This document shows positions 7,531 to 43,652 of a DNA stretch of 64,000 nt, one piece after another. Source of the stretch: an uncultured Erysipelotrichaceae bacterium (GTDB lineage: Bacteria > Bacillota_I > Bacilli_A > Erysipelotrichales > Erysipelotrichaceae); contig CATJXY010000034.1 in the NCBI GenBank assembly GCA_949744505.1, positions 62,001-126,000 on the forward strand, given 5' to 3'. The notes below the pieces were generated by a model that made no database searches, was not told the origin of the DNA, and worked only from the letters and a program-made list of their open reading frames with translations. Both the position numbers and the translations under genes were made by a program. Numbering within the stretch: position 1 is the stretch's first letter; each line of letters starts with the position of its first letter.

Positions 7531-7746
7531 AAAAAAACGTTCCTGAAATTCAGGAACGAATTAACTCCGCGGTACCATCCTAATTCATATTTTACAATAT
7601 GCACTCTACTCTTTAACGCAGAGATACGGAAGTTTTTTCCTTCACTTAATAAAGTAGCTTCAGTAGATTTTCCTGAAAATTTTCACCGACCATTTTCTCT
7701 CTGAAAAGAAATTTTCTAACTTACTCATCTTTATTCTCGTTTTCGA
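7531..7746 (-). promoter_or_regulatory. Alanine-specific T-box leader of alaS
   Basis: The minus strand carries the T-box consensus AGGATGGTACCGCG (7581-7568), followed by a terminator hairpin (7538-7558, CGTTCCTG/CAGGAACG) and a U-run (7537-7531). Stem I closes with AATAAAG (7735-7729) pairing with CTTTATT (7654-7648). A GCU triplet (7658-7656) sits in the specifier position, reading Ala, as expected for alaS. Uncharged tRNA-Ala should stabilise the antiterminator and permit alaS transcription. Confidence 0.93.
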
Positions 7747-20773: not shown

Positions 20774-21640
20774 TTAAATTTTTTTGTCGTTTTTAAGACA
20801 TATGTTAATTTGTTCTCTAGCAGATTCACTCACGCAAGTTAACGGTAATCGAAGTGTATTGTTACACAAACCCATCATTGAACATGCAGCTTTGATTCCG
20901 GATGGATTTCCTTCATTCATGATACAATTAGCTGCATGTTTAATTCTATTAATTAAATTTTGATTTTTGATTCCACACTGACTTTCTAAAATAAGTTTTG
21001 ATATTTCATCACCATAAATATGCCCGATAACTGAAATAATACCATTCATTCCCACTTCTAGCCCTTCTAATAATTGCTCGTCTTCACCACTATAAATACG
21101 CAAATGGTCAGTAGAAGCTAATATATCCGCAATATGTGTTAAATCATTATCAGCATGTTTATAAGCCTGAATATTTGAATATTTATTTGCCAATTTGACT
21201 AATGTTTCTGCTTCCAGAGCACAAGAGCACCTCTTTGGTACATTATAAATCATAACTTGTTTATCTGTTGCCTCAGCAATTTTAGAAAAATGTTCATATA
21301 ATCCCATTTGAGATGGTTTCACATAATAAGGAACAACTGCCATAACACCAGTAATTGGATAATCTTTAATTTTGTCTAAAAAATTCAGTGTTGATTCTGT
21401 ACAGTTTGTGCCAATTCCCATCCAGACCTCTTCACTTTTCACACAAGAAAGAACTATTTCTAAGATTTTTAGTTTTTCCTCATCTTTTAAAAAACAAGAT
21501 TCTCCGGTTGTACCACACACAACAAATCCATCGGATCCTTGTTTTTGACAATGATGAATAATTGTCTTTAAAGCCTCTTCATCAATAGACATATCTTCTT
21601 TATATGGAGTAATCAAAGCAATCATCATTTGTGCGTTCAT
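20774..21640 (-). CDS. dapA: 4-hydroxy-tetrahydrodipicolinate synthase
   Basis: Condenses pyruvate with aspartate semialdehyde, the committed step to lysine, diaminopimelate and dipicolinate. The motif 'GFVVCGTTGESCFLKDEEKLKIL' is the standard DapA substrate segment. The catalytic Tyr is in 'MIYNVPKRC' and the Schiff-base Lys in 'IQAYKHADNDL'. Length is 288 aa. It overlaps dpaB by 4 bp, and in Bacillus dapA lies in the spoVF (dpaAB) operon. This copy is likely dedicated to spore dipicolinate, although a housekeeping role cannot be excluded. Confidence 0.95.
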   Translation of the reverse strand: MNAQMMIALITPYKEDMSIDEEALKTIIHHCQKQGSDGFVVCGTTGESCFLKDEEKLKILEIVLSCVKSEEVWMGIGTNCTESTLNFLDKIKDYPITGVMAVVPYYVKPSQMGLYEHFSKIAEATDKQVMIYNVPKRCSCALEAETLVKLANKYSNIQAYKHADNDLTHIADILASTDHLRIYSGEDEQLLEGLEVGMNGIISVIGHIYGDEISKLILESQCGIKNQNLINRIKHAANCIMNEGNPSGIKAACSMMGLCNNTLRLPLTCVSESAREQINICLKNDKKI

Positions 21641-22221
21641 ATATTTTCTCCTTTCTTCATTGTGAGTAAAGGTTGAATTTGAACTTGTTTCAATGCCGCA
21701 TTAAAAGTTTCTTCGATCAAATCAAATCTGCTAATCAGACTATTTGGCTTATGAATCGGATCATCTTGATAGACCGGTGTCAAATAAATGTGCTTTTTCT
21801 GAATTAACTGAAATAAATTCACCGAAGAATTTCCTAAAAAATCATTACTTGCAATTGCCAATATCAATTCTTTTTGATTTCGAAGCATCGATTTTACAGA
21901 CAATAAAGTCGGATCATCATAGATTCCTTGATTCAATTTACTTATGAAAGTTGCTGTTGCAGGTGCCACAATACAAGCATCATATTGATTAGAGGGACCT
22001 GTTTTTTCCGCTTCTTCAATTGTATGAATAATTTTATTTCCTGTTATTTTAACAATTCGGTCAATCCGTTGTTTGGCAGATGAAAATCGATTTTCCACCG
22101 TATAGGTATTATTTGAAAATACACATTGAATTTCATAGCCTGATTTAACAAAATGTTCAATTTGCTCAAATACAATTTCATGATTGCAAAAAGAACCACT
22201 AATACACCACAATAATTTCAC
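21637..22221 (-). CDS. dpaB: Dipicolinate synthase subunit B
   Basis: Flavoprotein-like subunit of dipicolinate synthase (SpoVFB). With DpaA it converts the DapA product to dipicolinate, the Ca-chelated solute of the spore core. The 194-aa length is typical. The start 'LWCISGSFCNHEIVFEQIE' and the 'DACIVAPATATFISKLNQGIYDDP' flavoprotein fold segment are conserved. It overlaps both dpaA and dapA by 4 bp, a tightly coupled arrangement. Expression should be in the mother cell. Confidence 0.92.
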   Translation of the reverse strand: MKLLWCISGSFCNHEIVFEQIEHFVKSGYEIQCVFSNNTYTVENRFSSAKQRIDRIVKITGNKIIHTIEEAEKTGPSNQYDACIVAPATATFISKLNQGIYDDPTLLSVKSMLRNQKELILAIASNDFLGNSSVNLFQLIQKKHIYLTPVYQDDPIHKPNSLISRFDLIEETFNAALKQVQIQPLLTMKKGENI

Positions 22222-23015
22222 ACTAATCCCCTTTCTTTAATTGCCTCATATAAAATCAAAGCTGCACTTTTTGGTGAAAATTTTCCGGGAATACCAGGTA
22301 AATATTCATATTGAACTAATGAACAGTTCTGTAATTTTTTTTCTACCCCTACGGCATTTGATGCGATATCAATAATAAAAGGTTTTGACAAAGCTGATTT
22401 TATCATCTCACAAGTAATCATAAGACTTGGTGCAGTGTTTACAAGAAAATCAGTATTGATTCGATATTCTGGATAATATAATGTTTCAATGTATTTATTG
22501 TTTAAAAATATTCCATTCAACTTTCTTGTTGAAACAATTCTTACAGGACAATCCAAATCAACAAGCATCTTAACAAGAGCCTTTCCACAAATCCCATAAC
22601 CAATCACATCAACCTTGGTTTCACGAATTCCCATTTCACTATTTCTCAAAATTGAATCTAAAACTCCTTCTGCAGTTAAAATTGCATTTTTTTCATTTAT
22701 TTGAGTATCCTCTAAAATACAAATAGATTGAGCTTGACATCTGCTTAAAAGTTCATGATTTACACCACTGTAAATTACACAATTTTCGTTTTGGCATTCA
22801 AGAAAATCAAAAATATTGATTTTCTCTTTACCGCAAAGTATTTCTCCTTTTGCATTCATTCCTTGCATTGGTAACACAATCCAATCAAAATTTTTTTTAG
22901 AAATCATATCGAATTGGTTTTGATTCATTATTGTCGTGACGAAATGATGATCTTTTTTAAGATATTCCGCAAGATATTTCATTCGCTTGTCTGAAATAAA
23001 AATAGCTACATTCAT
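22218..23015 (-). CDS. dpaA: Dipicolinate synthase subunit A
   Basis: NAD(P)-binding subunit of dipicolinate synthase (SpoVFA). The Rossmann-type 'VDVIGYGICGKALVKMLVDL' (GYGxxG) is in the second half. The N-terminal half carries 'FDWIVLPMQGMNAKGEI'. Length (265 aa) is slightly below the Bacillus protein. It is the first gene of the run dpaA-dpaB-dapA-cse60-DUF1540. Its presence separates this organism from clostridia that lack dpaAB and use an EtfA-type route. Confidence 0.92.
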   Translation of the reverse strand: MNVAIFISDKRMKYLAEYLKKDHHFVTTIMNQNQFDMISKKNFDWIVLPMQGMNAKGEILCGKEKINIFDFLECQNENCVIYSGVNHELLSRCQAQSICILEDTQINEKNAILTAEGVLDSILRNSEMGIRETKVDVIGYGICGKALVKMLVDLDCPVRIVSTRKLNGIFLNNKYIETLYYPEYRINTDFLVNTAPSLMITCEMIKSALSKPFIIDIASNAVGVEKKLQNCSLVQYEYLPGIPGKFSPKSAALILYEAIKERGLV

Positions 23016-23503: not shown

Positions 23504-25114
23504 TTATGCTTGATATACACAATCTCCATTCATCCAAGTTTCAAGAATTTGGATTTCATTAATATGGAACGGATCACATTTGATTGGATTTTCGCTCAAT
23601 ATAACAAAATCCGCAAGCATTCCCTCTTTAATCTGTCCTTTGATATTTTCTTCAAAAGAAGCATGAGCACTACCTATAGTGAAAGAATTTATTGCCTCTT
23701 CAACCGTCATCGCCTGATCAGAAAGATAAGGACCTATGTGTTCTTTTAATGTGCATCGAGTTACAGCACATTGAATTCCTCCCATTACATTAGGAAGTTC
23801 CACCGGACAATCTGATCCATTTGAAACACAAACTCCTCTATCCATTAATGTTTTGAAATTATAACTGCTTTGAGCACGCTCTTTACCGATTCTCTCTTCG
23901 ACGATTTTAATATCATAATCTAAGAAAATTGTTTGTGCATAACAATGAAGATTCAATCGCACCATTCTATCCAATTGATCCGGTCGTGTGATTTGACAAT
24001 GAACAATACCATGCCGATGGTCTTTTCTTGGATTTTCAATCAATGATTTTTCAATTGCATTCATAACACGATCTAATATTCCATCCCCTATTGAATGGAT
24101 AGCTACTTGCATTCCTTTTGAATTTGCATACCCAATCATCTCATCAAATTTTTGCTGTGAATAAACCGGAATACCACAAGTAGTTGAATCATCGATGTAA
24201 GGAACACTCATAAATGCTGTTCTCGCACCTAAAGAACCATCTCCCAACATTTTTAAAGGTCCAAACTTGAATAGTTCACTCCCTACTCCGGTATTATATC
24301 CTTCCTCAATAAAAGATTTCAGATCATCTAAATTTGTAAAATGATTTTGTTCGTAGACACGAACAGTCATTTTTCCTTCATTTTCCAATTCACGATATGC
24401 CTCAATGACTTCATGATAATCTAGATTATGGAAAACAACAAAGTCATCAGTTTGAGCGGAAGTCACACCATAAGAATTCAGATGTTTCATAGCCTTAGTA
24501 AGCATTTCCTTTAATTCTGCTCGAGTTGGCTGAGGCAATTTTGAATAAACCATATCCAATGCATTTTCACGAAAGATACCCAATGGTTCTCCATTTTCAT
24601 CAACATCAAAATGTCCGCCTTCTACTTGCTCTGTGTTCTTTGTAACCTGAATCATTTCCAAAGCCCTTGAATTAACAACACAGGCATGACCACAAGCTCT
24701 GACAAGACAGAGCGGGTTATTAGGAGCAATTTCATCTAAATCATAACGGGTAGGAAAGCGATGACCATCACTAAAGAAGTCATGATTCCAGCCTCTTCCT
24801 CTTAACCATTGATTCGGTTTTACATCACGACGTTTTATTTCAGAAGCAATGTATTCTTTCAATTCTTGTAATGAAGATGTATGTTCTGCCAACTGCAATG
24901 AATCAAGACCATATCCATCATTTAAAACATGCATGTGAGAATCATTAAAACCCGCACAAACAAATCGTCCTTTCAAATCAACTAATTCAGCATCTTTATA
25001 CTGTGATTCCAATTCTTTAAGTGTTCCGACACCACAAAACTTACCGTTATTTGTAGCAAATGCTTCAACCATTTTTTCCCCGGTATAAATTTCACCATTA
25101 TAATAAATTTTCAT
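23504..25114 (-). CDS. Amidohydrolase, YtcJ-like
   Basis: 536-aa metal-dependent hydrolase of the amidohydrolase superfamily. 'GFNDSHMHV' gives the first HxH metal site near residue 60. 'VAIHSIGDGILDRVMNAIE' and 'GIVHCQITRP' carry further metal-binding His. 'VSNGSDCPVE' gives the distal Asp. YtcJ-type enzymes act on diverse N-acyl or amide compounds; the substrate cannot be predicted. It follows the lysine-riboswitch-controlled AGCS gene by 15 bp and probably shares its transcript, so the substrate may relate to lysine or another amino acid. Confidence 0.88.
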   Translation of the reverse strand: MKIYYNGEIYTGEKMVEAFATNNGKFCGVGTLKELESQYKDAELVDLKGRFVCAGFNDSHMHVLNDGYGLDSLQLAEHTSSLQELKEYIASEIKRRDVKPNQWLRGRGWNHDFFSDGHRFPTRYDLDEIAPNNPLCLVRACGHACVVNSRALEMIQVTKNTEQVEGGHFDVDENGEPLGIFRENALDMVYSKLPQPTRAELKEMLTKAMKHLNSYGVTSAQTDDFVVFHNLDYHEVIEAYRELENEGKMTVRVYEQNHFTNLDDLKSFIEEGYNTGVGSELFKFGPLKMLGDGSLGARTAFMSVPYIDDSTTCGIPVYSQQKFDEMIGYANSKGMQVAIHSIGDGILDRVMNAIEKSLIENPRKDHRHGIVHCQITRPDQLDRMVRLNLHCYAQTIFLDYDIKIVEERIGKERAQSSYNFKTLMDRGVCVSNGSDCPVELPNVMGGIQCAVTRCTLKEHIGPYLSDQAMTVEEAINSFTIGSAHASFEENIKGQIKEGMLADFVILSENPIKCDPFHINEIQILETWMNGDCVYQA

Positions 25115-25129
25115 ATCAAAGACCTCCTT

Positions 25130-26602
25130 TTAATCTTTTTTGTCTTCATAGAACAAGACTGTATTTTCATCTACTTGTCCTATTCCCATATAACGAGCTT
25201 TATAATCCTTCAATAATATAAAATACTTATTTGAAAGAAGTAAAATAACAAAAACATTAACGAAGGTAGGAATTGCAGATGTGATATCTACTAATGTCCA
25301 AATAAAACCGGTATTGCTCGTCTTAACGAGATAAATCGTCCACAAAAGACCCGGAAGTGATCTTATAACATAGAACACTTTGATCAAAGCTTTGGAGAAC
25401 GCTGTTTCTTTCATATTGATATGCTCAAGAATCGCCATATAATATGTAAACCATCCTCCAGAAGTTGTTACAGTAAAAACAATCATAATAATGGCTAAAA
25501 TAATGCTTCCAATCGATCCAAATCCTTGTGAAAAAGAACTGAGTGCTAATGCACCGCCGGTTGTTCCCTCTGTCCACATGCCACTTAAAATAACAGAAAG
25601 AGCTGAAATCGTACATACGATAAAAGTATCAAAAAATACTTCAAACGATCCCCATAGTCCTTGTTCAATTGGATGTCTTGTCTCAGCGGAGGAATGAATC
25701 ATCGGTGATATACCCCATCCAGCCTCGTTGGAATAAACTGAACGTGCCATTCCGGTTTGAACAATTTTTGCCACAGCAGCACCAGCAAAACCCCCCAATG
25801 CCGCAGTTCCGGTAAATGCATTTGAAAAAATCATTGCAAACGCATTAGGAACTTGAGAAATATTCACAAAAACCATCAAAATTCCCATTAAAATATATGC
25901 AATACTCATCAAAGGAACTAACTTACTAAAAATAGATGCAACACCTTGTACTCCTTTTGCCGTAATCAAATAGGTTGTTGCAGCTAACAAAATACCGATT
26001 ATAATTTCCCCTTCTACGAAGAAATCTCCTAATTGAATTCCACTAAAATTAAAAGCACCGGCAACGACTTCAGAAGCTGTTAAATTAGAGGATGTGATAA
26101 AGAAGGTTGAGAAAATGCCTATTCCGAAAATAATCGCAAAGATTTTCCATTTACCACCCCAATGTTTTTCTTCCCCCAATCCTTTTTGCATATAGTAAGT
26201 AGGGCCACCATACTTTTCACCTTTTTCGTTAGTTTCACGATAATAACAACCTAATGTAACCTCTACTTGTTTTAAAATAAGTCCAAAACACGCTGTTAAC
26301 CACATCCACAAAACCGCACCGGGACCTCCCGAAGCAACTGCTGTTGCAACTCCGGCTATATTACCAAATCCGACAGTCCCTCCAATCGCCGTACAGATTG
26401 CTTCAAATGGCGAAAGCATCTTACCGTTTTCTTTACTGTTTTTCTCAGTAATACGGCCGGCTGTTCTTTTCATGATCCAACCAAAGTGACGAAATTGAAA
26501 AAAACCAGACCGAATTGTAAAATACAATCCTGCAATCAACATGAGTGCGATAAGTGGGACTCCCCATAAAACACCGTTCAACCAATTCAAAAATTCAATC
26601 AT
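25130..26602 (-). CDS. AGCS family sodium:amino acid symporter
   Basis: Amino acid-Na+ symporter of the alanine/glycine:cation symporter family, about ten membrane helices. The family core 'CTAIGGTVGFGNIAGVATAVASGGPGAVLWMW' is near residues 80-115. 'EAGWGISPMIHSSAETRHP' is the other strong AGCS segment. AAAGGAG upstream supports ATG 26602 (490 aa) rather than an upstream in-frame start at 26629. AGCS members usually carry alanine or glycine, but a lysine riboswitch in front suggests lysine or a related amino acid here. Confidence 0.9.
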   Translation of the reverse strand: MIEFLNWLNGVLWGVPLIALMLIAGLYFTIRSGFFQFRHFGWIMKRTAGRITEKNSKENGKMLSPFEAICTAIGGTVGFGNIAGVATAVASGGPGAVLWMWLTACFGLILKQVEVTLGCYYRETNEKGEKYGGPTYYMQKGLGEEKHWGGKWKIFAIIFGIGIFSTFFITSSNLTASEVVAGAFNFSGIQLGDFFVEGEIIIGILLAATTYLITAKGVQGVASIFSKLVPLMSIAYILMGILMVFVNISQVPNAFAMIFSNAFTGTAALGGFAGAAVAKIVQTGMARSVYSNEAGWGISPMIHSSAETRHPIEQGLWGSFEVFFDTFIVCTISALSVILSGMWTEGTTGGALALSSFSQGFGSIGSIILAIIMIVFTVTTSGGWFTYYMAILEHINMKETAFSKALIKVFYVIRSLPGLLWTIYLVKTSNTGFIWTLVDITSAIPTFVNVFVILLLSNKYFILLKDYKARYMGIGQVDENTVLFYEDKKD

Positions 26603-26652
26603 ATTTCTTTTCTCCTTTTGTCCTTGCAATTGCTTTGCTGAATCAAAAGAAA

Positions 26653-26677
26653 GGACGACAGCCCAAAGCTATCGTCC
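26653..26677 (-). terminator. Lysine-riboswitch expression-platform terminator
   Basis: On the minus-strand transcript GGACGATAGC pairs with GCTGTCGTCC through ten pairs, including one U-G, followed by UUUCUUUU. It sits between the aptamer and the AGCS start, the usual place for an intrinsic terminator controlled by lysine. Confidence 0.8.
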
Positions 26678-26693
26678 GAATATATCCATCCGA

Positions 26694-26862
26694 TCAATAG
26701 CTCCTCCACTGTTTAATCCAGTGAGAGTCCATGACATATTTTGCCATGTCCCAACTCAAGAATTTGGTCAAAATCTTGGTTTCGGCGATGAATCCTTTCT
26801 TTCTGTTTCAACGGATGACCTTCCTTCACAGAATTACTTTTATTCATCGCGCCTCTATTGCA
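26694..26862 (-). promoter_or_regulatory. Lysine riboswitch (L-box) upstream of AGCS transporter
   Basis: The minus strand shows the conserved L-box core: AATAGAGGCGCGATG at the 5' end, AAAGTA, GAAAGG, TCGCCGAA, GGACTCTCACTGG and GGAGGAGCTATT at the 3' end. P1 closes with AATAG/CTATT. P2 has a perfect 9-bp GCGATGAAT/ATTCATCGC. P3, P4 (GACAT/ATGTC) and P5 (CACTG/CAGTG) are all present, matching the five-helix lysine aptamer. It should repress the AGCS-amidohydrolase transcript when lysine is abundant, by transcription termination. The motifs resemble Bacillus lysC closely. Confidence 0.9.
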
Positions 26863-26877
26863 AGGTTTACGCAAATT

Positions 26878-26906
26878 ATAATATTCTTATTTTTCTATGT
26901 TGTCAA
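26878..26906 (-). promoter_or_regulatory. Promoter of the lysine-riboswitch transcript
   Basis: TTGACA (26906-26901) and TATTAT (26883-26878), 17-bp spacer, sited about 15 nt upstream of aptamer helix P1. A shifted TATAAT with a longer spacer overlaps it. Confidence 0.75.
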
Positions 26907-43559: not shown

Positions 43560-43652
43560 TAATTTCTTTCTGATGACTCGCCATGACGGGTGGTTTTTTT
43601 AACACTTTAACCCGACTATGTGCGGTTGCAGTCACTAAAAGGACTTACAACA
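43560..43652 (-). promoter_or_regulatory. L21 leader-like structured 5' UTR of rplU
   Basis: Between promoter and start, the minus-strand RNA has 'CAACCGCACATAGTCGGGTT', followed by GTG-rich and ACCACCCG segments. These match my memory of the Firmicute L21 leader (RF00559). Paired G/C-rich stretches such as CGGGTT/AACCACCCG are visible. Autoregulation by L21 is a family-level claim. Confidence 0.6.

Follow-up and report, generated by a model that had tools for sequence, protein, structure and literature searches.

What does a lysine riboswitch regulate when it precedes a carrier of the AGCS family and a YtcJ-like amidohydrolase? The question is raised by a 64,000-nucleotide stretch of contig CATJXY010000034.1 (positions 62,001 to 126,000 of the forward strand; assembly GCA_949744505.1) from an uncultured Erysipelotrichaceae bacterium, referred to here as the window. 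The substrates of most AGCS and YtcJ-like proteins are guessed, and where the ligand of a riboswitch is known, it gives a clue to the product of the genes under its control. We propose, with moderate confidence, that the unit in the window is a lysine-repressed salvage operon through which bound lysine would be imported and then freed in the cytosol. In the open-access literature we found no report of this gene pair under a lysine riboswitch.

The leader was assigned by Infernal to the lysine riboswitch family of Rfam (RF00168) over its full length (113.1 bits, E = 2.1e-29; gathering threshold 30), which confirms the class and the coordinates given in an earlier note on this DNA. On this match, assignment to another riboswitch class was rejected. 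This is the highest RF00168 score in a survey of 196 genomes of the family. Moreover, 28 columns show conservation of at least 95% across 99 aptamers of the family, and the window aptamer deviates at none of them; the other AGCS-linked aptamers likewise agree with these columns. Because all core columns are matched, there is no sign of an altered ligand. The leader folds with an energy 5.1 standard deviations below that of shuffled sequences, and the terminator described by the earlier note was recovered (Table 1). It shares a segment with a predicted antiterminator; the two are mutually exclusive, with similar energies as far as folding predictions go. Pairing elements of the GCUAUUG / GAUAGC type are also visible in the leaders of loci L062-L065. 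The promoter listed in Table 1 comes from a consensus scan and is suggestive only. As read from the sequence, class and architecture are those of a textbook lysine OFF switch, which would act by termination.

Profile searches bear out the operon of an AGCS carrier and a YtcJ-like hydrolase that the earlier note had called. The carrier scores 340.8 bits against TIGR00835 (cut-off 272.65) and 332.8 bits against PF01235, and the hydrolase, whose gene lies 15 bases past the carrier gene, scores 348.9 bits against PF07969 (cut-off 29.7). The ATG at 26602 is the likely start of the carrier. Its AlphaFold model (predicted local distance difference test, pLDDT, 68) shares family and fold with AgcS of Methanococcus maripaludis (6cse/6csf), with 6cse as the best Foldseek match (template modelling score 0.71/0.80, E = 8.9e-17, 27% identity).

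However, positions that hold Gln and Gly/Leu in AgcS and 45 sampled relatives are replaced in the window carrier. Numbered by AgcS chain index, and with the 45 other AGCS proteins as reference, the riboswitch-linked carriers have Ser for Q170 (Gln in 45/45; S172 in the window protein), Ser for G271 (45/45; S288), Trp for L279 (42/45; W296), Phe for G164 (40/45) and Tyr for G374 (43/45). The window model is of low confidence exactly at residues 276-310, among the altered positions, and is too weak there to inform on the pocket. Among 56 AGCS proteins placed in a tree, ten group together on a long branch with 100/100 support, and AgcS is among the other 46. Six of the ten are riboswitch-linked, and at the other four no lysine riboswitch was detectable beside the AGCS and Amidohydro_3 pair (G021/L066; L103, a metagenome-assembled genome labelled Dehalococcoidales; L104, Psychrobacillus; L105, Blautia). 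The Gln equivalent to Q170 is retained in the Blautia, G021 and Psychrobacillus members. An Amidohydro_3 gene adjoins all ten clade members, compared with 0/76 more distant AGCS loci of named genomes, which have none within about 2.6 kb, some of these loci being cut by contig ends. A search of 395 genomes of the class yielded no clade members beyond those already known. On this sequence evidence the window carrier falls outside the typical alanine/glycine symporters, in a deep clade apart from them.

The ligands of a two-metal site were located in the hydrolase (H60, H62, K288, H340, H372 and D435) and are conserved in 34/34 relatives, among which H143 is also invariant. The structure model is confident (pLDDT 95.7) and has as its nearest matches 3igh and 3icj, two hydrolases that are uncharacterised; the remoter Foldseek neighbours are imidazolonepropionases, prolidases, ochratoxinase and Lys/Arg carboxypeptidases. 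Inspection by eye found no apparent signal peptide, suggesting that cleavage follows import. The hydrolase tree is not congruent with the carrier tree, and the partners of the AGCS clade are not a single clade themselves: the partners at L103, L104 and L102 (a metagenome-assembled genome labelled Lachnospiraceae) come from other branches, the placement of the L104 protein being unsure owing to its long branch. From the two trees, the AGCS clade seems to have been teamed repeatedly with different hydrolases of the Amidohydro_3 family, with exchange of partners.

Comparison with relatives, to which the earlier note had pointed, shows that the order riboswitch-carrier-hydrolase is conserved in five genomes from four genera of the family (G000, G030, G033 and, within one genus, G102 and G141), with AGCS proteins 58-81% identical, as well as in L102. 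The G102 hydrolase reading frame is intact (534 amino acids). In all five of these family genomes dapB is absent and lysA is not found above the curated cut-off, while most control genomes were positive in the same searches; a single lysA match in G102 falls below threshold (165.6 against 297.9 bits). The genomes are drafts, 95-98% complete, so that one absence alone would count for little, yet the pattern is seen in 5/5 for two genes. Their sequences indicate that the unit-bearing organisms are probably lysine auxotrophs.

The gene losses also bear on the suggestion that the hydrolase is an enzyme of lysine biosynthesis, such as an N-acetyl-diaminopimelate deacetylase. In Thermotogales, lysine operons under riboswitch control do include amidohydrolases (PMC5584792), and a dapA gene lies nearby. 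However, dapB and lysA are missing as described in every unit-bearing family genome, which makes a biosynthetic role unlikely, and the dapA gene apparently shares an operon with genes for dipicolinate synthase. We therefore rejected this highly improbable role as largely excluded. The operon in question, made up of dpaB and dpaA (the subunits of dipicolinate synthase) and dapA (dihydrodipicolinate synthase), occupies 20774-23015 on the minus strand of the window, and its dapA has probably been kept for spore dipicolinate.

The design of the unit recurs with other protein families. We took a census of 99 lysine-riboswitch units, a biased sample drawn mostly from the better-scoring matches of the family. 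The transporters were 42 ABC amino-acid importers, 12 YfcC, 5 AGCS, 4 APC, 3 NhaC and 3 OppA-like proteins; the remainder comprised 29 biosynthetic units (22 lysA-like and 7 dapA-like, judged from the first gene) and one hydrolase alone. A hydrolase follows a secondary carrier other than NhaC in 20/21 units (AGCS 5/5, APC 4/4, YfcC 11/12), whereas none is found in the ABC, NhaC and Opp units (0/48); a Fisher test of this difference is inflated by kinship among the units. The hydrolase is of the Amidohydro_3 type after AGCS and APC, and M20D or another M20 after YfcC. Carriers of three families and hydrolases of two unrelated ones converge on one design of carrier plus hydrolase. The APC partner resembles, among others, the fructoselysine carrier FrlA, at 187.8 bits and far below the cut-off of 800.

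How might the salvage operon work? At low lysine, the nascent leader would form the antiterminator and both genes would be transcribed. With lysine on the aptamer, P1 would form, the terminator would fold and transcription would stop. The AGCS-type symporter would import a lysine-containing compound, most likely with its charge masked, that is Nepsilon- or Nalpha-acyl-lysine or a lysine (iso)dipeptide. The two-metal Amidohydro_3 enzyme would then cut the amide in the cytosol, freeing lysine in cells apparently unable to synthesise it. Here we infer the substrate, the direction of transport, the order of the steps and the switching. Bound lysine is favoured over free lysine because the carrier clade always lies beside an amidohydrolase and because the carrier-hydrolase pattern recurs with other families under lysine riboswitches. 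Of the two imported substrates that the earlier note had named, the lysine-containing compound is therefore preferred, and free lysine is possible but less favoured; its suggestion that the hydrolase releases lysine gains support from the sequence data.

More tentatively, at slightly less than even confidence, we suggest that a distinct AGCS lineage carrying masked lysine, together with a cytosolic Amidohydro_3 amidase, could be the first recognised salvage of bound lysine under a lysine riboswitch, and that unrelated carriers (AGCS, APC, YfcC) and hydrolases (Amidohydro_3, M20) may have been brought together under its logic several times. If true, acylated or peptide-bound lysine would be part of what sustains lysine-auxotrophic bacteria, and a carrier plus hydrolase under lysine riboswitches, a design that we found noted before only as an annotation in Clostridium difficile, would be a general salvage strategy. 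Moreover, members of two large orphan families would gain a short list of candidate substrates from the riboswitch ligand.

The carrier may instead import free L-lysine, or basic amino acids, while the hydrolase acts on a different compound, a peptide or amide of lysine supplied by other importers. A lysine riboswitch usually marks lysine importers (PMC5584792). In LysP the side chain of lysine is recognised by a Trp, in a cation-pi contact, together with a Ser and an Asn (PMC12764776), and in the AGCS clade W296, S381 and Y388 occupy sites where other AGCS proteins mostly have L, I/V and G. However, the clade constantly adjoins an amidohydrolase, and the same genome also holds a separate ABC importer of the lysine/arginine type under its own riboswitch; import of free lysine by the carrier is, in our judgement, unlikely. 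As a special case closer to salvage of bound lysine, the substrate may be a dipeptide that contains lysine, and the hydrolase would then be a dipeptidase for Xaa-Lys or isopeptides, of the kind seen among remote amidohydrolase relatives. Foldseek neighbours of the hydrolase include 3mtw (a Lys/Arg carboxypeptidase), 3be7 (an arginine carboxypeptidase) and prolidases, solo relatives of the hydrolase lie beside Opp peptide importers, and lysine riboswitches precede OppA-like genes in three genomes. These neighbours are nonetheless remote, at 11-15% identity. Furthermore, AGCS carriers are not known to take up peptides, which counts against a dipeptide, and we hold this case to be rather unlikely.

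Improbable in our view is that the carrier moves Ala, Gly, Gln or mainly sodium, and that low lysine serves as the cue for a general response to nitrogen or pH, along the lines proposed for NhaC/LysW. Membership of the AGCS family speaks for this, as does the homeostasis role proposed for NhaC genes under lysine riboswitches (PMC11477304, PMC5584792); the earlier note's picture of AGCS proteins as alanine or glycine carriers is itself too narrow, GutA being a glutamine carrier (PMC12795558). Residues that are universal in other AGCS proteins are altered here, however, a hydrolase gene is adjacent, and the riboswitches that precede 14/56 distant AGCS loci scanned (the scan left out L162-L181) are for glycine, not lysine.

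Several observations weigh against the proposed salvage operon itself. Given the separate ABC importer, the AGCS unit is not the sole route for lysine, and the riboswitch-free members of the clade mean that the carrier-hydrolase pair is not lysine-regulated everywhere. Close relatives of the hydrolase (51-55%) without a lysine riboswitch (L082, L090, L092; L083, L087, L088, L091) stand beside genes for an asparaginase-like Ntn hydrolase or for oligopeptide ABC (Opp) transport, so the enzyme family has other uses. Lastly, the ligand set separates the enzyme from the epsilon-lysine acylases. Nearly all L-aminoacylases known are M20 or M38 metallopeptidases, and epsilon-lysine acylases, which free lysine from Nepsilon-acyl-lysine, are described as being without a bridging carboxylated lysine (PMC11511702). 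SmELA, from Streptomyces mobaraensis, has been placed among the YtcJ-like proteins (PMC10699109), and the Streptomyces enzymes SmELA and SgELA (EC 3.5.1.17) share with the window hydrolase the YtcJ-like type and the HxH, two His and Asp ligands. The window protein differs in its bridging K288 and is therefore not a member of that group as defined; by analogy, it may work like an epsilon-lysine acylase without belonging to the group. The full six-ligand site (H, H, KCX, H, H, D) and PF07969 are shared with the metallo bile salt hydrolase BwBSH1 (PMC13081902), which differs in being a 101 kDa protein that acts on taurine-conjugated bile acids; lysine riboswitches are unmentioned in that paper.

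Among known riboswitch targets, LysP, YvsH, LysW/NhaC and LysXY (PMC5584792) have in common with the window unit the aptamer class, the terminator platform and a transporter as target. They differ from it in that no AGCS protein figures in the published table of lysine transporters under riboswitch control, and the window unit adds an Amidohydro_3 gene. The known targets are thus wider than the LysP and NhaC types to which the earlier note had confined them, since they include YvsH, the ABC transporter LysXY and, in C. difficile, YfcC with M20D (PMC11477304). The last of these, CD3100-3099, consists of a riboswitch, a secondary carrier and an amide hydrolase as in the window, but both proteins are from families unrelated to those here (YfcC and M20D versus AGCS and PF07969). 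It was noted in that review without a known function.

Table 1. Positions in the window of the predicted leader elements and genes of the riboswitch-AGCS-hydrolase unit.
Feature	Position	Strand	Description
Predicted promoter	26878..26906	-	TTGACA-17-TATTAT; 11/12 match to a sigma-70-like consensus, just upstream of the aptamer
Lysine riboswitch aptamer (RF00168)	26690..26865	-	Covariance-model match
Predicted antiterminator hairpin	26665..26704	-	P1 3' strand GGAGCUAUUG pairs with terminator 5' arm CGAUAGCU; -16.8 kcal/mol
Intrinsic terminator	26653..26677	-	GGACGATAGCTTTGGGCTGTCGTCC + TTTCTTTT; 11 base-pair stem, loop of 3, U tract; -18.2 kcal/mol
AGCS-family (TC 2.A.25) carrier, divergent clade, 490 amino acids	25130..26602	-	TIGR00835, PF01235
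Amidohydro_3 / YtcJ-like metal-dependent amidohydrolase, 536 amino acids	23504..25114	-	PF07969

Some further loci of the survey are worth recording. At L067-L070 a lysine riboswitch is followed by an APC permease, with some similarity to the FrlA and LAT types, and then by Amidohydro_3; the permease frame of L070 is interrupted. L253 and L256 have a lysine riboswitch, a YfcC-like carrier and a glutamate-carboxypeptidase-like M20 of a subgroup other than M20D. The OppA-like oligopeptide-binding proteins directly downstream of a lysine riboswitch are at L222, L247 and L254 (three genomes), suggesting lysine-regulated peptide uptake. At L071 (G084:C21) the riboswitch directly precedes an Amidohydro_3 gene that is broken, and there is no carrier; this unit may be decaying. 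The proteins of the riboswitch-free AGCS and Amidohydro_3 pairs of G021 and Blautia are very close, which suggests recent transfer. Elsewhere in the window, a T-box leader before alaS (7549-7740, minus strand) and an L21 leader (43564-43637, minus strand) are both ordinary.

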